DNA from: Rubritalea marina DSM 17716
GTDB lineage: Bacteria; Verrucomicrobiota; Verrucomicrobiia; Verrucomicrobiales; Akkermansiaceae
Assembly: GCF_000378105.1 (NCBI RefSeq)
Contig: NZ_KB899247.1
Coordinates: forward strand, 186,001-250,000
Length of the DNA stretch: 64,000 nt
Direction of reading: 5' to 3'
Shown one piece after another: positions 17,665 to 30,000 of the stretch; position 1 is the stretch's first letter; each line of letters starts with the position of its first letter. Under the pieces are notes generated by a model, which saw nothing but the letters and a program-made list of their open reading frames with translations, searched no databases and had not been told where the DNA came from. Made by a program: the position numbers and the translations under genes.

Positions 17665-18630
17665 TCAGCCTAAGCTCGCACCGTTGCATACTAATCCACC
17701 TCGGATGAAATCGCTAGCTGACATGGCTTTTTTACCCTCTACCTGTACCGTTTGCAGCTGAATGCACTGACCATCACCACAGTGAACATAGAGTTGGTCA
17801 TGCTCGATAGTGACTAAGCCTGGTGATACCGCGCCTTTAGTATCCTGACACAGCGAGACTGGCGGAAAAATCTTCAATCGTTTCACCTTCCCCTTGGTGT
17901 CGGTGAATGAGGTGGAGGTGCCAGGCCATGGATGGTATGCGCGTACACGTCGCTCAATCGCTGCCGCATCTCGGCTCCAATCAATCTCACCATGCTTGCG
18001 TAGCAATTTTGGCGCATAGTTCGAGAGTGCTTCATCTTGGGGTTCTCGGCCAGCGGAACCGTCAAAGAGATGCTGCAATGCTGACAGCAAGCATTCAGGC
18101 CCATCTTCAGCGAGCCTGTCATGTAGCTCGCCGCCAGTGATGGAAGCAGGAAGCGCGAATGGCTTACGCAGAATCACATCTCCTTCATCGAGTCCCTCGG
18201 TCACGTGCATGACGGTCATGCCAGATTCTGCATCGCCTTGGTCGATGGCAGCTTGGATGCAGGACGCGCCACGGTGCTTAGGCAGCAAACTTGCGTGTAG
18301 GTTGATGATCGCCACATTCGGGATCTCTAGCAATGCTTTGGGTAGAATTTGGCCGTAGGCCATCACCACGATCACATCGGGCTTCAAGCTGCGAATGAGT
18401 TCAAGCTCCGCCTCTTCTTTGACTTTGCTTGGTTGGAATACCGGAATGCCCAGCTCCTCGGCTATCACCTTCACCTGTGGCGGAGTGAGCACTTGTTTGC
18501 GTCCGACGGGTTTATCAGGCTGAGTGATCAGAGCCACGGTCTCGTAGTTAGTATCTGCTAAAAGTGCTTTGAAGCTTGGGATGGCGATATCGCCAGTAGC
18601 CATGAAGAGGATGCGCTTGGTGTCTGCCAT
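17665..18630 (-). CDS. fmt: Methionyl-tRNA formyltransferase
   Basis: Fmt formylates initiator Met-tRNA using 10-formyl-tetrahydrofolate. It has 321 residues, the usual length. The N-terminal hydrolase-like fold has RILFMATGDIAIPSFKALL, the catalytic Asn-His-Asp set is visible as IINLHASLLPKHRGASCIQAA, and GMTVMHVTEGLDEGDVI follows. The C-terminal tRNA-binding barrel spans about 210-315 (IERRVRAYHPWPGTSTSF). The partner gene def is not adjacent. It begins 33 bases after the adk terminator. Confidence 0.95.
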   Translation of the reverse strand: MADTKRILFMATGDIAIPSFKALLADTNYETVALITQPDKPVGRKQVLTPPQVKVIAEELGIPVFQPSKVKEEAELELIRSLKPDVIVVMAYGQILPKALLEIPNVAIINLHASLLPKHRGASCIQAAIDQGDAESGMTVMHVTEGLDEGDVILRKPFALPASITGGELHDRLAEDGPECLLSALQHLFDGSAGREPQDEALSNYAPKLLRKHGEIDWSRDAAAIERRVRAYHPWPGTSTSFTDTKGKVKRLKIFPPVSLCQDTKGAVSPGLVTIEHDQLYVHCGDGQCIQLQTVQVEGKKAMSASDFIRGGLVCNGASLG

Positions 18631-18662
18631 TTTGTTAGCTTAGTTGTAGTCTGCGGGATGGG

Positions 18663-18692
18663 ACAAAAAAAGAGCTGCCGTGGCAGCCCTTA
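18663..18692 (-). terminator. Rho-independent terminator of adk
   Basis: On the minus strand the GGGCTGCC and GGCAGCTC arms are followed by seven T. It lies between adk and fmt. Confidence 0.8.
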
Positions 18693-18712
18693 AGAACTCT
18701 ATGAAGTGCGAC

Positions 18713-19345
18713 CTAGATCGAGACCTTATCCATCTCCTTGTAGATTGGCAAGGTGATGATCTTGTTGATGATGTCGCTCATGACCTTGATCGGTTGTTGA
18801 GTGGCATCAATGTCGGTGCGAATGGCCTCTGGGTAGAAATCTAGAATCGGCTTGGTCTCTGCCTCGTAAGTGCGAATACGGTCTTCAATAACTGCATCTG
18901 AAGCATCATCCATGCGGTTCTCGCGGAGTGCACGCTTGCGCATACGACGGGCTAGCTCAGAACGATCCGGGCATGAAAGATGGAAGATGTGCTCTACCTG
19001 AATGTATTCTTGAAGAATCTCAGCCTGTTCCACATTACGCGGGATTCCATCGAGGATTAAGATGTCTGTCTCAGGGAAATACTGATTCCCCTCTTTCCAG
19101 GTGTTGATTTGAGCCTGCCAGAGTTCAATCGTGAGTTCATCGGGAACCAATTGACCTTTGCTGGAGTACTCTACAAATTTTTGACCAAGCTCGGAACGAG
19201 TGTCTAGTGCTCTGAAGACATCGCCACACGCACAATGGAAGAAGCGGGGAACCATGCCTAGTGCTTTACCCTGGGTTCCTTTGCCAGAACCAGGAGCACC
19301 AAGTATCAGTATTGCTGGGCGTTTTTTGTTGCTCTCGTTTGCCAT
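18713..19345 (-). CDS. adk: Adenylate kinase (nucleoside monophosphate kinase family)
   Basis: The enzyme interconverts AMP + ATP and 2 ADP. The P-loop is LGAPGSGKGTQ (residues 15-25), the NMP-binding part is HCACGDVFRALDTRSELG, and the catalytic segment is LDGIPRNVEQAE, where the usual DGFPR reads DGIPR. The LID is the short type without zinc (RRMRKRALRENRMDDASDAV). The 210 residues fit. The FHCACGD segment replaces the common HISTGD, so some change in AMP handling is possible, and UMP/CMP kinase activity cannot be excluded. It is transcribed alone, with a terminator. Confidence 0.88.
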   Translation of the reverse strand: MANESNKKRPAILILGAPGSGKGTQGKALGMVPRFFHCACGDVFRALDTRSELGQKFVEYSSKGQLVPDELTIELWQAQINTWKEGNQYFPETDILILDGIPRNVEQAEILQEYIQVEHIFHLSCPDRSELARRMRKRALRENRMDDASDAVIEDRIRTYEAETKPILDFYPEAIRTDIDATQQPIKVMSDIINKIITLPIYKEMDKVSI

Positions 19346-19509
19346 AGGGCGCGCATCGTAATGAGAATCGCCTAGAGGGCAAGCTGAAATCTAGGCTCAA
19401 TTATAAAAATAATGCTCTCCAATCGATCATATTGCGGATGACACACGATGACACTCGTAGGTGATAGACATCACGATTAGATTGGTAAATATAGTATCAA
19501 CTCCTGTAA

Positions 19510-20580
19510 AATTCAGCAATTACGACTAGAAAATCATCACTTAAAGGAACCCGAATCACCGAAATCGAAGGGCTCCGTGCAGTGCTCGCGCTGTGGGTAT
19601 TCTTCTGTCACGTCATTCTCTACTGCGGCTACCCACGCGTCTTGCCAGGGCCGATCGAGTTCTTCCGCGCCGCCTGGCACGCGCTTGATGTTTTCATCAT
19701 CATCGCAGGTTTTGCGATGTGGTATGCGCTTGATCACAGCAACGACAAATACTTCCGCTACCCAGGCAAACGCTTCTTCCGCCTATTCCCCTTGATGTTC
19801 TTACTATTCCTCGTCGCCATCCCCATTGCCAAGCTTGAGATGGAAGGTGCTGCAATTCTTGGTCAGACCGCATCAGTCGCCCACATCCAGTCGTGGTTCG
19901 ACTGGATGTGGGCGCACATTGGCCTTCACGCAGTCATGCTCCACGGCGTCGTCCCCAAAGCCAGCTCCCCATCGGGAGCACCCTGGGCATTCTTGCCGCC
20001 AGCATGGTTTGTTTCCAACGTCTGGCAGTTTTACCTGGTGGCGCCCTTCATGTTCATGTTGAACAAGTCACAAGCCAAGTTTATCACCCTAGGTTTCGGC
20101 TGTGCCGCCATCGTCTGGTTCCGCCACTACCTGCCACCCGTCGGCACTGGCGCCTTCCTACCATTCCACATCGAATACCTCTTCATCGGTGCGTGCTCCT
20201 ACAAGCTATTCAAACTCTTCGCCGGCCACTAATGGCGTATCCCCTTCCCGCTCACTGGCTTCGCACTCATGACCACCTTGTTGCTCTTCCCACAGGTCAA
20301 AGACATCTTCCTTTGGGATGATCTCGACCTCAACAAAGACCACTGGTGGTTGCCGCTGAGCTTCTGGGCGATCTTCTTCTGTGTGGTGCTCGATAGCCAC
20401 TTTGGCAAACTCGATTGGGTGTCGAAGACGCTCCGCTCATTCCTCAACTCAAAAGCCATGCAATGGGTGGGAACCGTTTCCTACAGCTTTTACCTCGTCC
20501 ACGCACTCGCCCTAGCCGCGCCGCTCTTCAAGTATGTTGAACTCGGCGGCGCCAAGCTCGGTAAAAAAATCATGGGGTGA
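19510..20580 (+). pseudogene. Decayed membrane acyltransferase (acyltransferase family 3, OatA-like)
   Basis: The reading frame translates as a typical acyltransferase-3 membrane protein: RITEIEGLRAVLALWVFFCH at the N-terminus, about eight hydrophobic segments, and MQWVGTVSYSFYLVHALALA near the C-terminus. These enzymes O-acetylate cell-wall or surface sugars. Two lesions are visible. No ATG, GTG or TTG precedes the conserved ITEIEGLRA segment before the in-frame stop at 19507, and the first usable start (GTG 19582) would cut into it. A TAA at 20230-20232 then interrupts the frame; it stays open on both sides without a shift. The downstream part (20233-20580) continues the same protein. A sequencing error at one site would not repair both lesions. 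Confidence 0.8.
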
Positions 20581-20586
20581 ATCGGT

Positions 20587-20790
20587 GCGGGAAGCATAGC
20601 TTCACCGCGACCGGGTAGAAAGTAGTCAGTAGAAAGCCTCATTCAAATCCAGAGTTAATATTCTAGATTTACCCCCCCTAGCTTTTATCTATCCGACCAC
20701 AGCGTGGTCGCAGAAGGTAGCCCCGAGTCGAGCGCAGTGAACACTCGGGGTCATGTGATTAGGAGAAAAGCCGACTCTGGAGGAGTCGCA
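20587..20790. repeat. Cluster of four intergenic hairpins
   Basis: The 320 bases between the acyltransferase remnant and the M56 gene hold no coding frame of interest but four inverted repeats. They are GCGG-GAAGC/GCTTC-A-CCGC (20588-20609), CGACCAC/GTGGTCG with loop AGC (20694-20710), CCCCGAGT/ACTCGGGG (20721-20750) and CGACTC/GAGTCG (20772-20788). The second and fourth are each followed by CAGAA, so the unit C-CGAC-loop-GTCG-CAGAA occurs twice. The direct repeat GTAGAAAG occurs twice at 20615-20636. This looks like a small palindromic intergenic repeat element. Confidence 0.6.
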
Positions 20791-20900
20791 GAAAGAACGC
20801 GCTCCCCATCCCCGCGCCCCACAGTCACCACCAAACAATAGAAGCTTTGGTGAAACCCAGGATTCCTCCGGATGAGCACCCTAGGTTTTCCGCTTCCAGA

Positions 20901-23900
20901 CTACTTCTTCACCTTCTCCATCACGATGTCTGGCACTTCGGTGGTTTTGCCTTCACGGATTGTGAAGAACTCAGTCCCATTTTGTCGCATAGCATTTGAT
21001 TTCGAATAGGACACTTGAAGTTCAAACTCTCCAGTCGGCACCCCATACATTATGAACTCGCCCTTTTCATTAGGCTCAGCCCACACCAACCCCGAAGTCT
21101 CGTCCAAACCATCCAAATTCTTATATCGTATTCTTGCTGATTGAACTGGCGAGCCCTGCTGATCCACAACCCTTCCTTTTACGGTTCCTCCGGAAGTCAT
21201 CTTCAGCTTAAACTCATACACTTCACCTGGCTTTGGAGTGAACGGTTTCGAAAATGTCGCCGCTAAGGTTTTCTTCCATGAGTTGGTAGATTCATACGCA
21301 CAAACCTGCACACTCTGGCCGACCAATTTGGGCAAGAATCCAGAAAATTTTCCATCTTCCTTAACTAGGATACTGCGGTAATTCCACTGCTTCGTGTCAG
21401 CGATGTAACCAATAGCTAGGCTGCTATGTTTTACACCATCTGGAACCGTTACTACCCCACTGACCTGGGCTCCTTTTTCGAGAAGGATCACTTTCTCAAA
21501 GGTTGTCTTCTTTAGGCAAAAATTAAGGTTCGCCAGATCACCTGTATTGGTATGTTTACTTATGGGTATCTCAGCGAAATAGGCTGATTGGTAACATTGA
21601 AAATGGGTATCAGAATCCAGCCAAGCTGGTGAATTGCCTACAATCGGACGAATATTGTACCTGTTTGGCAACAAACCAGTAATTGAAATCTGTCCATTCT
21701 CATCGGTGTGTAAGATATTGTTTTTATTATCTCCATCCCACCCAGCAATAGCCGAGTGTTCAAACGTACCAATCCAAAATCTCAATTTCATAGGTAGACC
21801 CACGATTGGCTCCATAGTCTGAATATCTTTAAACGTGACCTTCAGTTGTGAAGCTTGCTTAAGTGAAGGTCTAAGACTGACCGTCTCGCCATGCTCCACT
21901 ATAAATGAATGCCTAATGATGTGCTCATCACTCATTGAAGCCTCTAATGTCCACGCACCAGGTTCGACTAAATGCTCAAAATTACCATATTCATCAGTAA
22001 TCCCAGTGACACCCATTTTATCTCTAAAGTAAGGACCTCGCCGAAGCCCTCCTTCGGTAGCCATTTTATACTCCAATACGTAAGGATGAAATTTTGCAGG
22101 GCTTCCGTCGGCCTTGAGTAAGGTTCCTTTGCAGCGTGACGAGTTGTCTAACTGGACGATAAGCGCCCCGTTCTCCAAATACCTTTTCGGTAGTAGTCGT
22201 GTGGCATATCCAGGGGCGTCAACTCGAAATTCACCCAACCCATGTATATTGTCGAAGCTCACGAGACCATCTGTATCGCTGACCTTACGGTGGTCGACGA
22301 TATTTCGCGTAACAACTTCCTGATATTGCTCAGTAGATTCAAACCGTTGATGGAGGTGATATTCATGAAGGAAAGAAGGGATCTCGTCTTTTCTGCCAGC
22401 TATTCTAGCCCCCTCGATCGGCTGCCCTTGGCCATCCACAATTTTGAGATGGATCCAGTGCTTTTCTACTTTCTCAGGCCACTCAGAAATTCCATGTAGT
22501 GAGTTAGTGATAAATTCCTCGTAGGTCGCTCTAAAAACTTGGGGTTCCTCCAGTGAGTTCACAAAATGAAAGATTCCACCTTCTGATGTTTTTCCGAATA
22601 TTTCTAACCCAGAGTTTTCTGGATTTGCTACGCGGCCACCATACCTGAATGTCTGTAATCTCTCTCGATCAAACCTAAGGCCAGTTTCGGGGTTGACGCT
22701 AAAGTATGCAACATCGCGGGCTCCATTTTCATTGGAATGATCAATCATTCCTTGGCCTGTAGCTAGGTCCACAATTGTAGAGTAGTACCAATCAACAATT
22801 TTGACTTCGTTACCATTGAGGCCGTAACATTCGGTCAGCGGTTGGCCCAGATCTAGCTCAATCAATTCAGAAGTGTCTGCGCTAAAGTCCTTAACCCAAT
22901 CCTTGCCTGTTGCATCCTTGATCCGCACTTGATAATCACATCCATCGACCACGGGGATTTCGAACAGTCCATCAATTGACGCCTTAAACTCAGTGCGGTC
23001 TATAAGGTGGCCATGGAGAATCATGGAGCAATTTAATTCTTTGACTTCACACGCTTTTCCATTGAGTAGCACCTTGATCTTCTGAAGTGAGACTTCCTTC
23101 AATTCTAGCTGCATGTGCTTGCTATCCACGATCGTAGGAGCACTACTCCATTTGCCATCTTTTGATTTAGCGAAGACACTGCATTGAACTGCTGATGGAA
23201 GTTTCGCTGTGAACTGTGCATCCTCCACTACAGCATGCAAATAATCTGTAGAAATTACGACTCTATCGTTCGTGAGAGCCTTCACATGGACAGTGCCATC
23301 GAATTTGCTAATCTGATCAGGCAGCACGAGCTCACCTGTCATTCCCTCCATAGCTTGAGGCTCAACCCAGAGCTCTATCGAACGCCCTTTAGCCGTACGA
23401 GGAGTACTTATAGTCAGAGCACTGTATTTACCTTTCGAATGGGAAACTCTCTCAGAAATCCAGCACTCACTAGGCTTCGGTCTAGCCGCACATCGTGCCA
23501 TCGTCCTTGGGTGCATCCTAAATTCCACACGTCCGTGAGCATCTGTGTACTTGTATTGATCATTAGGATGGTAACCAGCTTGAACCTCGCCGAAGGCGTA
23601 GGGTTGACCATTATCTTTACGGAGTACTTGCACCCGGAGCGGCACGCCTTGAATCGCAACCAGATCACAACCTTGTTTTTGCTCGGTGGGCTTCAGCTTG
23701 AAGGTGTACTCACCGTCTAGCAAAAGCTTCGAACTGTGATGCAGAGTGATCTTCCACTCGCCTTTGCTTTTGCTCTTACCTGAGGTGCCATTTTGATTTT
23801 TCCCATAGAGAGCTGGAAATTCATAACGGCCATTCTCATCAGTGGTCGCGAACCAATTCACCGATGCGTAGTCAGTAGCTTGAGCCTTGAGTGTGACGTT

Positions 23901-25853
23901 GGCTAATGGCTGACCTGCTTCATCATGCAGACTTCCTGATAGACTGGCTCGTGGATAACAATAGGTGGTATCGTTCGCTTTAACACCGATCCATTTCCAG
24001 TCTCTTGCCAAACTGGTCTCCGAGTGCTCAATCATAAATCCACACTTGGCTGGCGGTAAGTTGTCGATGCTACACTCGCCATTTTCATCGGTGATTCCTA
24101 CACAAATCCCCATGTCAACACTGCCTCGAAAGTCCGACTTAGAATAGTCACTAGACATATTTTCTAACTTCGCTGGGTAATCCTGCAAATAGCGGAGATA
24201 AATCTTAGCGCCGGCAAGCGCCCTAGGTTCCAACGTATTGCCATCAGGATCTGTGAAACCCTTGGTTTTGACGATGAATTGGTGGCTCATTGGCTGATCT
24301 AGATAGACATCTAGCTCTTGTGAGGAACCCTGGGTTCTCATGCCGACATCAAAGCTAGGGTTCTTAACTTTAGCACAGCCAACGGCCCAGTCGGAATGCG
24401 TGGCCAGCACATTGTAATTATCTAACCACTTGTAGCGCTCTCGGTACTTAAATTTCATTAATCCCTCAAAGCGATAGCTTCCATCTGCGGCAGAGGTCAC
24501 CTCCTCGACCACACCAGCATCTATCGGAATAGCATCTTTGAAATTGTCATAATAAAGCACGACCTTCGCTCCCGCAATGGGGTTGCCGTCGGCGTCTAGG
24601 ATCTTTCCGTGCGGTGCTGGGATTTCTACGAACTCTGGGAGGGACTCAGGGTTGAGGTCTTCATTGAGATCGGCAGCTACTGGCATGAAACACAGGGCGC
24701 CTACGAGCACTAACAAGGCGAGCTCGCCTAGGGTGGCGCGGAGCCTGAAACCACGCAGTTGCGCCTTGGGATTGAGCATCGCTTGGAAGCGACGCAACAT
24801 CGGAGCACCTTTGGTTTTCGCTGCCATCGCGAATGCTTTTTGCTGGGATTCGCCGAGCTTGAGCAAAGCCTCGGCATACACCTGGGGTGCCTCGCTGCGC
24901 TCCACCGCCATGGCATCGCAGAGTTCCTCGCGAACTTGGCGCAGCTCGCGACCTACCACCCAGACGAGTGGGTTGAAAAAGAAGATGGTTTCGACCGCAC
25001 GTTGCAGGATGTTGAAGAAAAAGTCGTGGCGGCGGATGTGTGCGAGCTCGTGCACCAAGATCGCTTCCACTTGCTGCGGGCTCAGGTTATTGAGCATGCC
25101 AACTGGCACGAGGATGACTGGCTTGAGCCACGACACCACCATCGGTGAGTGCACCCTAGCAGATTCTAGCAACTGCACTTTTTTTAGGTAAAACCCAGCC
25201 TGCGCCTTAGCCAGCAGAGCTTGCATTTCAGCCGACACTGGTGCCGCGGCACGCTTCAAGGCGCGCAATTCCCAAGCACCAAAACACCAACGCAAAGCCA
25301 GAACGATGACCCCCAGCCCCCAGAGCACAGCAATCCACAAAGAATGCGCCTGCACCCATCCACGGACATTGCCCAACAAATCAAAACCTAGGGTACCTTC
25401 TGCAGTCGAAAGCTCATTATCACCATGATCTCCATGAACACCCTGGGTTTCAGCATCAGCCTGCTGGATCAGCACCCTAGATTCTGAGGCGGGAACCTCA
25501 GCATTCACAACACTCTCCGAATCCGTCACCGCAGAAAACCCAGGGCTCTCGGTAGACTGCAGCACTTCTAAGTCTTCACCAACTGCAGCGCTTTGCCCGA
25601 CAGAGTCGGCAACGGTTTTTTCCACTAGCACCTCGAAGGGCTTCATGAAGGGTTCGCTTAAAAGCAAAGCACCCAACAAACAAGGCACAAAACTCAGCTG
25701 CGCCAGCAACAAGACCCCATACTTCAACGACTTCGATCGCAGCAGCGCCGCCACCAATAAGCCCACCAAAACCACCGCCGAACCCAGCAAAGCAGCCAAC
25801 AACAAAGCCCAACACCACGTCGCGACATGGTCGTAAATCAAATGCTCAAACAT
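20901..25853 (-). CDS. Giant BlaR1-like M56 membrane peptidase with beta-sandwich sensor region
   Basis: The 1650 residues fall in two parts. Residues 1-400 are an M56 (BlaR1/MecR1) metallopeptidase: membrane segments at about 12-37, 45-66, 172-192 and 377-395, the zinc motif HELAH at 268-272, and the downstream REELCDAMAV glutamate region. In BlaR1 this domain cleaves or triggers loss of the BlaI repressor when an outer sensor binds a ligand. The remaining 1250 residues should lie outside the inner membrane. They consist of carboxypeptidase-regulatory/SpaA-type beta repeats (GKILDADGNPIAGAKVVLYY; GSLHDEAGQPLANVTLKA; GRVVDQQGSPVQSARIRY) instead of a penicillin-binding domain. The ligand is unknown. 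It lies 34 bases after blaI in one operon. Confidence 0.88.
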   Translation of the reverse strand: MFEHLIYDHVATWCWALLLAALLGSAVVLVGLLVAALLRSKSLKYGVLLLAQLSFVPCLLGALLLSEPFMKPFEVLVEKTVADSVGQSAAVGEDLEVLQSTESPGFSAVTDSESVVNAEVPASESRVLIQQADAETQGVHGDHGDNELSTAEGTLGFDLLGNVRGWVQAHSLWIAVLWGLGVIVLALRWCFGAWELRALKRAAAPVSAEMQALLAKAQAGFYLKKVQLLESARVHSPMVVSWLKPVILVPVGMLNNLSPQQVEAILVHELAHIRRHDFFFNILQRAVETIFFFNPLVWVVGRELRQVREELCDAMAVERSEAPQVYAEALLKLGESQQKAFAMAAKTKGAPMLRRFQAMLNPKAQLRGFRLRATLGELALLVLVGALCFMPVAADLNEDLNPESLPEFVEIPAPHGKILDADGNPIAGAKVVLYYDNFKDAIPIDAGVVEEVTSAADGSYRFEGLMKFKYRERYKWLDNYNVLATHSDWAVGCAKVKNPSFDVGMRTQGSSQELDVYLDQPMSHQFIVKTKGFTDPDGNTLEPRALAGAKIYLRYLQDYPAKLENMSSDYSKSDFRGSVDMGICVGITDENGECSIDNLPPAKCGFMIEHSETSLARDWKWIGVKANDTTYCYPRASLSGSLHDEAGQPLANVTLKAQATDYASVNWFATTDENGRYEFPALYGKNQNGTSGKSKSKGEWKITLHHSSKLLLDGEYTFKLKPTEQKQGCDLVAIQGVPLRVQVLRKDNGQPYAFGEVQAGYHPNDQYKYTDAHGRVEFRMHPRTMARCAARPKPSECWISERVSHSKGKYSALTISTPRTAKGRSIELWVEPQAMEGMTGELVLPDQISKFDGTVHVKALTNDRVVISTDYLHAVVEDAQFTAKLPSAVQCSVFAKSKDGKWSSAPTIVDSKHMQLELKEVSLQKIKVLLNGKACEVKELNCSMILHGHLIDRTEFKASIDGLFEIPVVDGCDYQVRIKDATGKDWVKDFSADTSELIELDLGQPLTECYGLNGNEVKIVDWYYSTIVDLATGQGMIDHSNENGARDVAYFSVNPETGLRFDRERLQTFRYGGRVANPENSGLEIFGKTSEGGIFHFVNSLEEPQVFRATYEEFITNSLHGISEWPEKVEKHWIHLKIVDGQGQPIEGARIAGRKDEIPSFLHEYHLHQRFESTEQYQEVVTRNIVDHRKVSDTDGLVSFDNIHGLGEFRVDAPGYATRLLPKRYLENGALIVQLDNSSRCKGTLLKADGSPAKFHPYVLEYKMATEGGLRRGPYFRDKMGVTGITDEYGNFEHLVEPGAWTLEASMSDEHIIRHSFIVEHGETVSLRPSLKQASQLKVTFKDIQTMEPIVGLPMKLRFWIGTFEHSAIAGWDGDNKNNILHTDENGQISITGLLPNRYNIRPIVGNSPAWLDSDTHFQCYQSAYFAEIPISKHTNTGDLANLNFCLKKTTFEKVILLEKGAQVSGVVTVPDGVKHSSLAIGYIADTKQWNYRSILVKEDGKFSGFLPKLVGQSVQVCAYESTNSWKKTLAATFSKPFTPKPGEVYEFKLKMTSGGTVKGRVVDQQGSPVQSARIRYKNLDGLDETSGLVWAEPNEKGEFIMYGVPTGEFELQVSYSKSNAMRQNGTEFFTIREGKTTEVPDIVMEKVKK

Positions 25854-25887
25854 CTTTCTAAAATCTAACTACCAACTTGAGACTCCC

Positions 25888-26271
25888 CTACTTCTTCCCA
25901 TTCTTCTCCTCAATCTGATCCAAGAGGTCGCGGAGCTGCGCGACTTCGTCGTTGCTGATTGGTTTGGAATCAATCGCCTTCATGGCGAACTCCGCAGCTG
26001 AGCCTGACGTGAGTTTGTCCATCCACTGCGAGAGCAAGGAAGTCTGGGTTTTCTTCTGCGAAACCAAGGCACGGTATCGATGTGGTCGCTTTTCGCAAAC
26101 GCGCTCGATGAGTTGCTTTTCCTGCATGATCTGCATGATTTTCAAGGTTGTGGTGTAGCCCTTAGCCGCCGCCAAATTCTCGTGTACCTCCTTCACCGTC
26201 TGCTCTGCTTGCTGCCATAGCAGGTTCAAAACATCTAACTCACTATCCGTTGGTGTAGGCTTCTTTCTCAT
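25888..26271 (-). CDS. BlaI/MecI-family transcriptional repressor
   Basis: The 127 residues from ATG 26271 (MRKKPTPTDSELDVLNLLW) match BlaI length. The frame is open upstream, but that part covers the operator and is not conserved-looking. The winged helix spans about residues 8-75 (TVKEVHENLAAAKGYTTTLKIMQIM; RPHRYRALVSQ), followed by a helical dimerisation tail. In the family, the M56 partner relieves repression by proteolysis of BlaI. The downstream M56 gene in the same unit makes this a two-gene sensor/repressor module. The palindromic half-sites over its own promoter and start codon indicate autorepression. Confidence 0.93.
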   Translation of the reverse strand: MRKKPTPTDSELDVLNLLWQQAEQTVKEVHENLAAAKGYTTTLKIMQIMQEKQLIERVCEKRPHRYRALVSQKKTQTSLLSQWMDKLTSGSAAEFAMKAIDSKPISNDEVAQLRDLLDQIEEKNGKK

Positions 26272-26309
26272 TACGAACCAATTCGTACTACGAAATAAAT
26301 CGTAGTCAA
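26272..26309 (-). promoter_or_regulatory. blaI promoter with tandem TACGA palindromic operator
   Basis: Three overlapping inverted repeats share the half-site TACGA: TACGAA-4-TTCGTA (26272-26287), TTCGTA-C-TACGAA (26282-26294) and ACTACGA-6-TCGTAGT (26287-26306). On the minus strand TTGACT (26309 to 26304) is a good -35, with TACGAA (26287 to 26282) as a -10 at 16-base spacing. Transcription would then begin within a few bases of ATG 26271, giving a leaderless or nearly leaderless mRNA. The palindromes cover the promoter, as expected for autorepression by a BlaI-type dimer, though the half-site differs from the TACA/TGTA of staphylococcal BlaI. Confidence 0.7.
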
Positions 26310-26424
26310 TGGTTTTTGTTAGTGATATGTTAGAATATTGCTTTGATGTTGTGTCTGGAAAAGTGAAAACGATGGCAGAAAAATTCTTCTTTATCGATGG
26401 CATTCCTTAATCTAGAGTTTAATT

Positions 26425-26598
26425 ATGAGTTCAGCAGGAACAATTCGAAAGTCCGTTGGCCGCCCTCTCGAATCGCTCAGTCCATTTCAGAGGCTCGAAC
26501 GTCTGCGCCAAAATGCGGCCCCATTCATCAAGAACAAACGAAATGACAGCACCCATCGAGTCCTCATTCGAAAAACTGTTGGTACTGCTCGTTAAAAA
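26425..26598 (+). CDS. Possible small protein upstream of the nucleotidyltransferase
   Basis: A 57-codon frame from ATG 26425 has protein-like composition (SVGRPLESLSPFQRLERLRQ, then NAAPFIKNKR). It runs 56 bases into the next gene in another frame. I do not recognise it. It could be a partner of the nucleotidyltransferase, for example an antitoxin-like peptide, or the 5' remnant of a longer gene whose end was changed. The only support is composition and position. Confidence 0.4.
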
Positions 26599-27016
26599 CA
26601 GCATTAAATTTACCACGGTTGATGGGATTGCGGTTTGCTTGAATGGCTACGTCCGACTGACAGAAGATGTCGATATTCTAATAGCAAAAGACAAATCTAA
26701 CATTGAAAAGCTTATTGAAGCTCTTAGTGGTTTTGGAGAAGGTTTTGCTTCTGAACTTGAGGTGGGTGACTTCACTGATGAAGAAGGAGCTATTCGCATT
26801 ATAGAAAGTGTGGAGAATTGCCAGATCAACATTTTCGTGAGAATGCGAGGATTACACCTTGAGGATTTCAGAGAAGACATTCAATATTTCGAAGCTGGCG
26901 ACACCACAGAAATCCCCTATTTAGGCTCAAAGAGTCTTATTCAGTTAAAATCAGGCACAGTTAGAGAGAAAGATAGAGTTGATGTCTCAGTGCTTGAAAG
27001 TATGGGTGAACAATAA
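26543..27016 (+). CDS. Nucleotidyltransferase-like protein (AbiEii/DUF6036 type)
   Basis: The 157 residues from ATG 26543 (MTAPIESSFEKLLVLLVKNS) carry TVDGIAVCLNGYVRLTEDVDILIA (about residues 23-46), which matches the 'GGxA...hGxxRxTxDxDxLv' nucleotidyltransferase signature of AbiEii-like and DUF6036 proteins. The first Gly of the GG pair is Asp here. Two acidic metal ligands (EDVD) are kept, and a third may be the acidic residue in ENCQINIFVRMRG. Relatives include the toxin halves of abortive-infection pairs, which modify tRNA or other RNA, but many are uncharacterised. An upstream start at 26456 in the same frame is open but unlikely. The overlapping small ORF upstream may be its partner. 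Confidence 0.7.
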   Translation: MTAPIESSFEKLLVLLVKNSIKFTTVDGIAVCLNGYVRLTEDVDILIAKDKSNIEKLIEALSGFGEGFASELEVGDFTDEEGAIRIIESVENCQINIFVRMRGLHLEDFREDIQYFEAGDTTEIPYLGSKSLIQLKSGTVREKDRVDVSVLESMGEQ

Positions 27017-27092
27017 GTAGTGGAGCACTAGCAGTGCGACCAAGGATCTTAGCTATTGCTAGTTTCCTAGAATTGATTTCAAGTAATCCCAT

Positions 27093-27497
27093 ATGGCAAA
27101 AGGATTCGACACCCACCAAGCGCGGCTCAATGAACTGAACTTATTTGGCAAGGACTTGGCGCGACGCGCGAAATCAAAATGTGAACTCAGTGGCGAGTCA
27201 GGAGTTCCATTGAAGATCTATGAAGTGGAACCGGTGCCGAAGGAGCCTGAATTTAAGCATTGCGTGATGTTGTCCGAGCTTGTGATCGAGCAATTGCAAA
27301 AGCCAAAGAATATAAATGCTAAGACTTGGCGCGGCATCCTACCAGAGCTTGTGTGGTCGGAGCTAGAGGTGATACAGGTGCTAGCCATCCGCTTGCTGCG
27401 GCACATTGCTAGAAGTGAAGCTTGGGCGCAGGAGGTGCTGGATGAGGCATTCATCGATGAGACCACTCTCGAGTGGGCTGATAAGTGCCCGCTCTAG
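27093..27497 (+). CDS. PhnA-like protein
   Basis: The 134 residues begin HQARLNELNLFGKDLARRAKSKCELSGESGVPLKIYEVEP, which recalls the N-terminal segment of PhnA-family proteins ('RxxxkCELCG...L.VYEVPP'). The second half of the zinc-knuckle pattern is not a CxxC pair here: CELS replaces CELC. E. coli phnA was named for phosphonate genes but its role is not settled, so no reaction should be assigned. The C-terminal half is helical. It is followed after 25 bases by the MEKHLA-domain gene, with which it probably forms an operon. Confidence 0.55.
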   Translation: MAKGFDTHQARLNELNLFGKDLARRAKSKCELSGESGVPLKIYEVEPVPKEPEFKHCVMLSELVIEQLQKPKNINAKTWRGILPELVWSELEVIQVLAIRLLRHIARSEAWAQEVLDEAFIDETTLEWADKCPL

Positions 27498-27522
27498 CAA
27501 TTAGATATCCGAGGACGATTTC

Positions 27523-27981
27523 ATGTCAGAAAATTACAACTCACCAGAGCTTGAATCACACGCCGAGTTGCTGCAATCGAGCTTTAGGCGTCTACTCGGT
27601 CGTGATTTGGTACGCAGTTCTCCCCTTTCCACAGCCACAGCGATAGCAAGCTCGCAGGTGGCTATTTTGTCCCATGGCACGGAAAGCGACCCGCAATTCA
27701 ATTATGCGAACCTGGCTGCGCTTCAGTTATTTGAAACCACTTGGTCTGATTTAATCGGCACTCCTTCCCGGCATTCTGCCGAGCCAGTGACCGAAGCGGA
27801 ACGTGATGCCTTGCTCAAGCGGGTGACTCTGCATGGCTTCATCGACGACTATCAAGGGGTGCGCATTTCCGCTAAAGGACAACGCTTCATGTTGCTAAAC
27901 GCGATCGTTTGGAACCTATTTGATGAGCTTGGATCCTACCACGGCCAAGCCGCCGCGCTTTACGAGTGGCGGATGCTTTAG
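27523..27981 (+). CDS. MEKHLA-domain protein
   Basis: The 152 residues match the MEKHLA domain, a PAS-like fold also found at the C-terminus of plant HD-ZIP III factors. Characteristic parts are VAILSHGTESDPQFNYANLAALQLFE (residues 44-69), a PSRHSAEP segment (about 80-88) and HGFIDDYQGVRISAKGQRFM (about 106-125), ending in the typical VWNLFDELGSYHGQAAALYEW. In bacteria this is a stand-alone protein of unknown ligand and function. Its stop codon overlaps the end of the convergent recO gene by 4 bases. Confidence 0.85.
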   Translation: MSENYNSPELESHAELLQSSFRRLLGRDLVRSSPLSTATAIASSQVAILSHGTESDPQFNYANLAALQLFETTWSDLIGTPSRHSAEPVTEAERDALLKRVTLHGFIDDYQGVRISAKGQRFMLLNAIVWNLFDELGSYHGQAAALYEWRML

Positions 27982-28511
27982 TCACAGACGCTATCCCTGC
28001 ATTGTTTCCGCAGTATGGGTAATTTACCAAAGGCGTCCTCAAGGGCAAGATTCGCACGGCGCCGCCCATCCCACACGCCGGTGCATTTAGCGAGTTGCTT
28101 TTCAAAGTGGTCGAATGCCTTGAGATTGGCCTCCTCCACACTGACATAGGCAAGCGCGCGTTTTAAGAGGTCAAAGATTGCGTCGTCGCAGACCCCCTCC
28201 TCTAGCACATGACTAACAAGGGCGCTAAAATAACTGGCCATGAGAGTTTTTTTGTAATCCCCCCGCAAGCCTTCAAAACGATTCTCAACGCGCAGTTCTC
28301 TCAGCCCGTGTAAGTCCGAGCGGGTGCTCTCACTCCATTGAAGTTCTGCTAGGTAAAATAAATCAATATTTCCAGCGAAGCTGCTTTTAGGTCTTCGAGC
28401 CCCTTTGGCCACCGTTCGCACCAAACCAACACCATCGACACACCAGTTCACAATCAGGCTTGTGTCGCTGAGTTTTGTGAGGCGGATAATGATCCCCGTG
28501 GCATTGTGCAT
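27978..28511 (-). CDS. recO: RecO-like DNA repair protein, short form
   Basis: RecO helps RecR load RecA on SSB-coated DNA. The 177 residues from ATG 28511 show the N-terminal OB-fold pattern (ATGIIIRLTKLSDTSLIVNW, then GLVRTVAKGARRPKSSFAGNIDLFYLAEL) and a helical domain (LMASYFSALVSHVLEEGVCDDAIFDLLKRAL). At 177 aa it is well short of the usual 230-250 and lacks the four-cysteine zinc module of many RecO proteins. A start at 28568 is open but would read into the dapL promoter region. It is divergent from dapL. Confidence 0.75.
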   Translation of the reverse strand: MHNATGIIIRLTKLSDTSLIVNWCVDGVGLVRTVAKGARRPKSSFAGNIDLFYLAELQWSESTRSDLHGLRELRVENRFEGLRGDYKKTLMASYFSALVSHVLEEGVCDDAIFDLLKRALAYVSVEEANLKAFDHFEKQLAKCTGVWDGRRRANLALEDAFGKLPILRKQCRDSVCD

Positions 28512-28601
28512 GTGGCTTAGGTTAGGGCTGGAATTGTAAATCTCAAATCCCAAATTCAGGCCTTGCACTTTTCAAGCATACTAGCCAGCATCCTGGCCGT
28601 T

Positions 28602-29825
28602 ATGGCACGTATCAATGATAACTTTCTCAAACTTAAGGCTGGGTATCTTTTCCCAGAAATTGGCCGCCGTGTGGCTGCGTACACCGAGGCAAATCCAGAC
28701 GCCGCACTCATTCGTTGTGGCATCGGTGATGTGACCGAAGCACTCCCGAAGGCTGTTCAAGACGCAATGCACAAGGCGGTGGACGAGCTTGGTGATCGCG
28801 ACACTTTCCGTGGTTACGGCCCTGAGCAGGGCTATGCCTTCCTCCGCGAAGCTGTGGCGGAAAATGCTTTTGCTGACCTCGGCATTTCCGCCGACGACAT
28901 TTTCGTGTCAGATGGTTCAAAGTGCGACACTGGCAACATCCTAGACATCTTTGGCCCAGGCAACACGATTGCGATCACCGACCCAGTGTACCCAGTATAC
29001 GTGGACACCAATGTCATGATTGGCAACACTGGCGAAGCTGATGAAGCTGGCCGCTACGAAGGCCTTGTTTACCTTCCATGCACTGCGGAAAACGATTTCG
29101 TTCCTGCCATCCCAGAAGAGAAAGTAGATATCGTCTACCTTTGCTACCCGAACAACCCAACTGGCGCCTCCGCCACGCGTGAGCAACTCCAGGCATGGGT
29201 GGACTACGCGCTTAAAAACGACGCCATCATCCTCTACGATGCCGCCTATGAAGCATTCATTCAAGATGCAGACGTTCCTAGATCTATCTACGAAATCGAA
29301 GGAGCTAAGGAATGCGCCCTCGAGTTCCGTTCCTTCTCTAAGAATGGTGGCTTCACTGGCGTACGCTGTGGTTACATCGTGATCCCAGATTCCGTATTCG
29401 GAACGACTGAGTCCGGCGAGAAAATCAGCATCAAGCAACTTTGGAGTCGTCGCACGTCTACTAAGTTCAATGGTGCATCGTACCCAGTGCAACGTGGCGC
29501 AGAAGCAATCTTCTCGCCAGAGGGTAAAGCTGAAGTTGCTGCTCTTGTGGAACATTACATGGCCAACGCGAAGCTCCTTCGCGATGCGTGCACAGAACTC
29601 GGCCTCGAGGTCTTTGGTGGTGAAAATGCACCGTATGTATGGGTTGCTTGTCCAGAAGGCCTGACCTCCTGGGATATGTTCGACAAGATGCTCCAAGAAG
29701 CGAACGTGGTGATCACTCCAGGCTCTGGCTTCGGTGCTGCTGGTGAAGGGTACTTCCGCATCTCGGCATTCAACTCACGTGCCAACGTTGAGGAAGTCTG
29801 TAAGCGACTTAAAGCGCTTCTCTAA
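28602..29825 (+). CDS. dapL: LL-diaminopimelate aminotransferase
   Basis: DapL converts tetrahydrodipicolinate directly to LL-diaminopimelate with glutamate as amino donor, bypassing the succinylase and acetylase steps of lysine and peptidoglycan synthesis. The 407 residues from ATG 28602 begin [20 protein letters not shown], the DapL-type N-terminus. Class I aminotransferase motifs are [33 protein letters not shown] and the PLP lysine in [16 protein letters not shown]. The route occurs in plants, Chlamydiae, Verrucomicrobia and some others, which supports the assignment of the host. A strong terminator follows. Confidence 0.95.
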
Positions 29826-29856
29826 AGAGAAAAAGCACTATTCAAGCAACTCAGTC

Positions 29857-29888
29857 AGGCGAAGCTTCCATAGCTTCGCCTTTTTTTG
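29857..29888 (+). terminator. Rho-independent terminator of dapL
   Basis: The arms AGGCGAAGC and GCTTCGCCT close a seven-base loop, followed by seven T. Confidence 0.92.
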
Positions 29889-30000
29889 TCCCTCCACACG
29901 TTTGTCCACTTAAAGGAGCGCTAAGATCTTTAATCTATCTGCATGAGCGCTACGCAGCTTGCAATTTTAAATCCATCCCCTACAGTGCGGACTCAACACT

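Follow-up and report, generated by a model that had tools for sequence, protein, structure and literature searches.

A BlaI-M56 repressor-protease pair with a long ectodomain lacking a penicillin-binding domain in Rubritalea marina

BlaR1 and BlaI have mostly been studied as a penicillin switch. In Rubritalea marina DSM 17716 we encountered a gene pair in which the inner machinery of this switch is intact and the sensor is unrelated, which raises the question of what such a receptor responds to and which genes it controls. The pair is located in a stretch of 64,000 nucleotides of contig NZ_KB899247.1, hereafter termed the window, to which all positions refer. In the ORF listing the two genes are adjacent on the minus strand, the blaI repressor gene (25888-26271, 127 aa) being followed after a gap of 34 bp by the gene for an M56/BlaR1-type receptor protease of 1650 aa (20901-25853). 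A profile search of the whole genome identified them as its sole M56 gene and its sole BlaI (PF03965) gene. An Rfam search of window positions 18000-30000 yielded no match, and the viral contigs searched contained no relative. The loci in the window and in the congener G011 have no neighbours in common apart from blaI and M56. Adjoining the M56 gene, an Acyl_transf_3-like acyltransferase gene (19582-20580, plus strand) apparently consists of two frames (19582-20232 and 20269-20580) and is possibly frameshifted or decayed; a MEKHLA-domain (PAS-like) protein is encoded nearby at 27523-27981 on the plus strand.

The Pfam family Penicillinase_R (PF03965) covers the repressor with an E-value of 6.6e-23 and 81.7 bits against a curated cut-off of 22.6, and the PDB entries matching the repressor are MecI, BlaI and 2g9w. 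The product, a BlaI/MecI-family winged-helix repressor, begins with MRKKPTPTDSEL, carries the recognition-helix motif YTTTLKIMQIM and has the C-terminal segment EFAMKA. The ORF is listed from 26403; its true start was placed at 26271 (MRKK...) because of the family match, the homologues and the operator position. The copper repressors CopY and TcrY belong to the same superfamily. In contrast to these, the repressor studied here scores 39 of 122 bits, which is below CopY grade, is linked to a protease, and has no copper genes seen adjoining.

The receptor matches Peptidase_M56 (PF05569, E 5.2e-33) over residues 172-339, the cytosolic gluzincin domain (24837-25340, minus strand), with 114.9 bits against a Pfam cut-off of 31. 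The HELAH zinc motif at residues 268-272 (25038-25052, minus strand) corresponds to H201-H205 of BlaR1, and E309xxxD313 (24915-24929, minus strand) to E242xxxD246; the H, E and H of the former and the E and D of the latter are invariant in 28 homologues. The active site of BlaR1 comprises H201ExxH, E242xxxD, D210, Y261 and R294 (PMC9834060). Its counterparts in the window protein are H268-H272, E309/D313, D277, Y326 and R355, the first five being mapped by a constant offset of 67, Y326 and R355 by alignment. Across alignments of 18 and 28 homologues no variation is seen at H, E, H, E, D, D and R; conservation of Y326 exceeds 90%, or is complete in subsets. As in the S. aureus systems BlaR1-BlaI and MecR1-MecI (8exs; PMC9834060), the repressor adjoins a four-helix M56 gluzincin with the same catalytic residues.

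Hydropathy indicated four membrane segments near residues 16, 47, 169 and 378, and these helices are present in the AF2 model; by homology, the receptor would be oriented with its sensor outside. In the core model the membrane helices and the gluzincin domain are confident, with a pLDDT of about 95 across the M56 domain, and the best PDB matches retrieved by Foldseek are all S. aureus BlaR1 (8ext/8exs, E 1e-7), followed by Ste24/ZMPSTE24. Likewise, the strong relatives in a PDB sequence search with the receptor were exclusively S. aureus BlaR1 entries, aligned over residues 175-330. The two family matches, the HELAH motif, the four membrane segments and the BlaR1 fold confirm that the BlaI-M56 module proposed in the preliminary description is real. 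In addition, when the receptor was placed side by side with repressor C-termini, residues at about 336-352 (24798-24848, minus strand) emerged as the putative equivalent of the BlaR1 autocleavage loop. The loop sequence KAFAMAA resembles EFAMKA of the repressor, and similar pairs of loop and C-terminus recur in relatives, consistent with an M56 loop that mimics the BlaI substrate.

The outer arm is of a different kind. The extracytoplasmic part, residues about 397-1650 (20904-24665, minus strand), contains no PBP or beta-lactamase domain: searches of Pfam, NCBIfam and the PDB revealed no PBP, class-D beta-lactamase or other catalytic domain in residues 400-1650, and the absence of any Transpeptidase or beta-lactamase match upholds the initial view that no penicillin-binding domain is present. 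Four stretches, all on the minus strand and all conserved in L055, the receptor of G011, were assigned: CarboxypepD_reg-like domains 1 (residues 414-505; 24339-24614) and 2 (residues 637-708; 23730-23945), a partial domain 3 (residues 1133-1175; 22329-22457; E 1e-4 with a local HMM), and a C-terminal CarboxypepD_reg domain (residues 1557-1640; 20934-21185). In Pfam, CarboxypepD_reg (PF13620) scores 106.9 bits against a cut-off of 32.3 over three stretches. The three to four recognisable transthyretin-like domains make up about a quarter of the roughly 1250-residue arm, and residues ~710-1130 and ~1180-1550 gave no convincing match. The arm had been described as a string of carboxypeptidase-regulatory-like repeats; this is correct for the three to four domains, but overstated for the remaining three quarters. 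The AF2 model of the ectodomain, built from an alignment of two sequences, reached a pLDDT of 36 and was too poor for a fold search.

Compared with the S. aureus systems, this one lacks a class-D beta-lactamase-like sensor and a bla or mec gene, and the outer part is several times longer and unrelated. Against the NCBIfam model blaR1_generic the receptor scores 88 of 400 bits, far under the equivalog cut-off. The pair belongs to the M56 and BlaI families and falls outside the beta-lactam receptor equivalogs, the exclusion from BlaR1/MecR1 being made because the sensor domain was sought and not found.

L055 aligns to the window receptor from end to end with 30% identity, and because it is alignable over its full length, an artefact of ORF fusion is unlikely. 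Among 260 family genomes, the window receptor and L055 alone match over the full length; the rest match in the M56 part. In 58 relatives, the majority of M56 genes adjoin blaI. In a tree of the M56 core the two receptors group together (100/96) within a moderately supported clade whose ectodomains differ, comprising CarboxypepD_reg (L067, L068, L070), class-B PBP (L065, L066, L069, L071) and HEAT (L059) types, while the profile scan recognised no domain in the ectodomains of L057 and L074. Outside the clade, PBP, Amidase_3, PSCyt2 and CarboxypepD_reg types occur. Most of the 80 homologues obtained from a scan of named genomes belong to Bacteroidota, Acidobacteriota, Planctomycetota and Verrucomicrobiota. 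Among 125 non-redundant ectodomains, a convenience sample rather than a census, 17 contain CarboxypepD_reg, seven Transpeptidase, four TonB_C and four Laminin_G_3; secretin, amidase, LRR and beta-propeller were found in one or two each. The 17 CarboxypepD_reg cases come from several phyla and bear out the earlier surmise that M56 fusions of this kind exist elsewhere.

Such fusions in relatives, Planctomycetota and Hydrogenedentota (L055, L056, L064, L067, L068, L070, L160, L175, L189, L192, L201) have the same plan as the window receptor and usually lie beside blaI. However, L055 alone is alignable across the whole ectodomain; the others vary in length and in the extra modules they carry (LRR, secretin). 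We found no description of an M56-CarboxypepD_reg fusion in the open-access literature searched. Fusions of M56 to a class-B PBP (L065, L066, L069, L071, L049, L051), the first four of which belong to the M56 clade of the window, usually have a blaI partner as well, but differ from the window in their PBP2/MrdA-like ectodomain (PBP_dimer and Transpeptidase). The SxxK motif is absent from four of seven PBP-type members examined, and these ectodomains are apparently dead transpeptidases serving as sensors.

Other variants were noted alongside. The M56 proteins of the congeners L037-L045, 318-365 aa long, have no outer sensor; the adjoining blaI genes encode a different class of BlaI (SRRERQIMD), and the TACGA operator is missing. 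The M56 copy at L073:5132-7945 (plus strand) contains a stop and looks broken; the next frame resembles a CarboxypepD_reg arm. In Planctomycetota and relatives of Rubritalea marina, some M56 receptors encoded next to blaI (L148, L165, L169, L170, L062) reach about 3000-3800 aa and have very long ectodomains.

Two perfect TACGA-N6-TCGTA palindromes, neither assigned to a strand, precede blaI. The putative operator O2 (TACGAACCAATTCGTA, 26272-26287) abuts the start codon and is found as the same site at the same position in G011; the centre of putative operator O1 (TACGAAATAAATCGTA, 26289-26304) is 17 bp from that of O2, and its equivalent in G011, TACGAAGGTCTTCGTG, has one mismatch. A putative -35 hexamer TTGACT (26304-26309, minus strand), read from the sequence, is common to the G011 promoter, and the G011 layout TTGAC-TACGAAGGTCTTCGTG-T-TACGAATTGTTTCGTA-ATG matches that of the window. 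A consensus promoter scan called no promoter at blaI. With this hexamer, the operators would overlie the spacer, the -10 region and the start. Operators at the promoter of the repressor itself are a further likeness to the S. aureus systems. The staphylococcal bla and mec operators are of the TACA type, whereas the window has TACGA.

The palindrome was then sought within 160 bp upstream of 159 non-redundant blaI genes. It is present before 60 of the 74 genes whose recognition helix reads LKx[MLFI]QxM and before none of the 85 without this motif; shuffles gave a chance expectation of 0.03, and a reversed control palindrome 0. The Fisher value of 1e-30 overstates independence, the motif having been picked post hoc and the sequences being related. 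The association spans at least four phyla. Judged from these promoter sequences, TACGA-N6-TCGTA marks a cross-phylum BlaI subfamily. Paired sites are spaced by 22-32 bp in most members, the 17 bp of the window being the lone such case. The M56 gene L070 (G052:C143) has no adjoining blaI, yet TACGA-N6-TCGTA lies 34 bp upstream of it; a paralogous blaI-M56 pair (L068, G052:C66) elsewhere in the same genome suggests control of L070 in trans.

The analysis establishes the gene pair, the catalytic residues, the match of operator and subfamily, the absence of a PBP domain, the conservation in L055 and the swapping of ectodomains. We regard an autoregulated proteolytic switch of the BlaI-BlaR1 type with a non-penicillin ectodomain as the likely reading. 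In its favour speak the catalytic set, the BlaR1 fold of the core, the pairing with blaI in nearly all homologues, the palindrome before blaI genes of the LKx[MLFI]QxM class, the tandem sites in G011, the segment common to loop and repressor, and the absence of the tandem operator elsewhere in the genome; the consensus scan, which does not recognise the promoter hexamers, counts against it. At rest, BlaI would occupy the two adjacent operators over its own promoter and keep transcription of blaI-M56 low. The input would come from the envelope: the arm would bind a ligand or partner or undergo a mechanical change, and the fourth membrane helix would relay this to the cytosolic gluzincin domain. 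By analogy with BlaR1, the latter would then cleave BlaI, resulting in derepression.

Since it is hard to see what purpose a purely self-regulating switch would serve, there must be an output that our searches missed or only hinted at. The preliminary description had suggested that the pair controls other genes via the TACGA palindromes. This was not borne out: the genome contains three exact sites, two at the blaI promoter and a third inside the gene for a branched-chain/urea-type ABC transporter ATPase, and the tandem operator occurs nowhere else in it even with up to three mismatches. Degenerate sites were fewer than for the reversed control pattern, and all those checked except one lie inside ORFs. 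Among the neighbours there was no gene for a beta-lactamase or PBP2a that shares the operator, and this genome has no further intergenic exact operator; the claim that a linked resistance gene is absent thus stands. We also ran the exact-operator search on six related genomes. An extra intergenic exact site in G011 (L144) has no gene start within 300 bp. A regulon of 27 exact hits in G019 was rejected; except for the two at the blaI promoter of G019, all lie inside ORFs, mostly as in-frame TAC-GAN codons.

The lone intergenic degenerate case examined, TACGAATCATTTCCTA, has one mismatch and is located 38 bp upstream of the single-copy DUF6172 gene of this genome (G000:C4). From TTGA onward this region aligns to the blaI promoter at 22 of 28 positions, and the gene that immediately follows M56 in G011 encodes a DUF6172 homologue. 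That BlaI additionally controls the DUF6172 gene as the real output of the proposed switch is an extension we consider possible, though somewhat doubtful. The resemblance was spotted after the fact, 22/28 matches arise by chance at unrelated loci too, and the DUF6172 gene of G011 seems to have its own promoter, common to congeners without a BlaI of the LKx[MLFI]QxM class. Of 58 relatives 21 have DUF6172; the other genus members examined lack a comparable site near its start. The probability of coincidence can be put roughly at 0.005-0.01; since the case was post hoc and the G011 copy apparently has a promoter of its own, we rate it a lead.

Alternatively, the receptor might still respond to beta-lactam or cell-wall damage, but at one remove, with a partner PBP or a muropeptide as intermediary and the ectodomain as a docking rod. 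Peptidoglycan indeed recurs among the relatives, in the class-B PBP ectodomains of near clade members and in Amidase_3 of one distant relative, and the PBP-type members that lost SxxK would sense without acylation. The BlaR1 homologue of M. tuberculosis also has no equivalent sensor domain, and detection of the drug by a partner has been suggested there (PMC9834060). However, the window receptor itself contains no PBP domain, and the genome has two weak Beta-lactamase2 matches (E about 4e-6) with no exact operator nearby, in a family that also matches in the E. coli and B. subtilis controls. We therefore consider such indirect sensing unlikely. It is still less probable that M56 is a constitutive or orphan quality-control protease with a structural outer arm and a BlaI regulated otherwise: no regulon was found in the genome and the congener M56 proteins of 318-365 aa lack the outer arm entirely, but M56 is paired with blaI in nearly all homologues, contains the substrate-like loop, and has kept a full-length arm in G011 at 30% identity.

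Returning to the switch with a non-penicillin ectodomain, the arm has been swapped many times among relatives, and the same inner machinery thus probably serves to report many differing cell-envelope signals. This repeated exchange of sensors in close relatives makes it a testable proposition that the penicillin switch was recruited from a wide range of related envelope sensors. Moreover, the operator code, TACGA-N6-TCGTA together with the LKx[MLFI]QxM helix, can be used to search for switches of this type and the genes they control. More tentatively still, and with rather more doubt than conviction, BlaI-M56 may be a plug-in receptor chassis of several phyla, with a conserved protease, a dedicated TACGA operator code and freely swapped ectodomains ranging from CarboxypepD_reg chains and degenerate class-B PBPs to amidase, secretin, HEAT, LRR and beta-propeller; the envelope signal sensed by the version in the window would then not be an antibiotic, and DUF6172 would be an output. 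If this were true, the staphylococcal penicillin sensor would be one special case.
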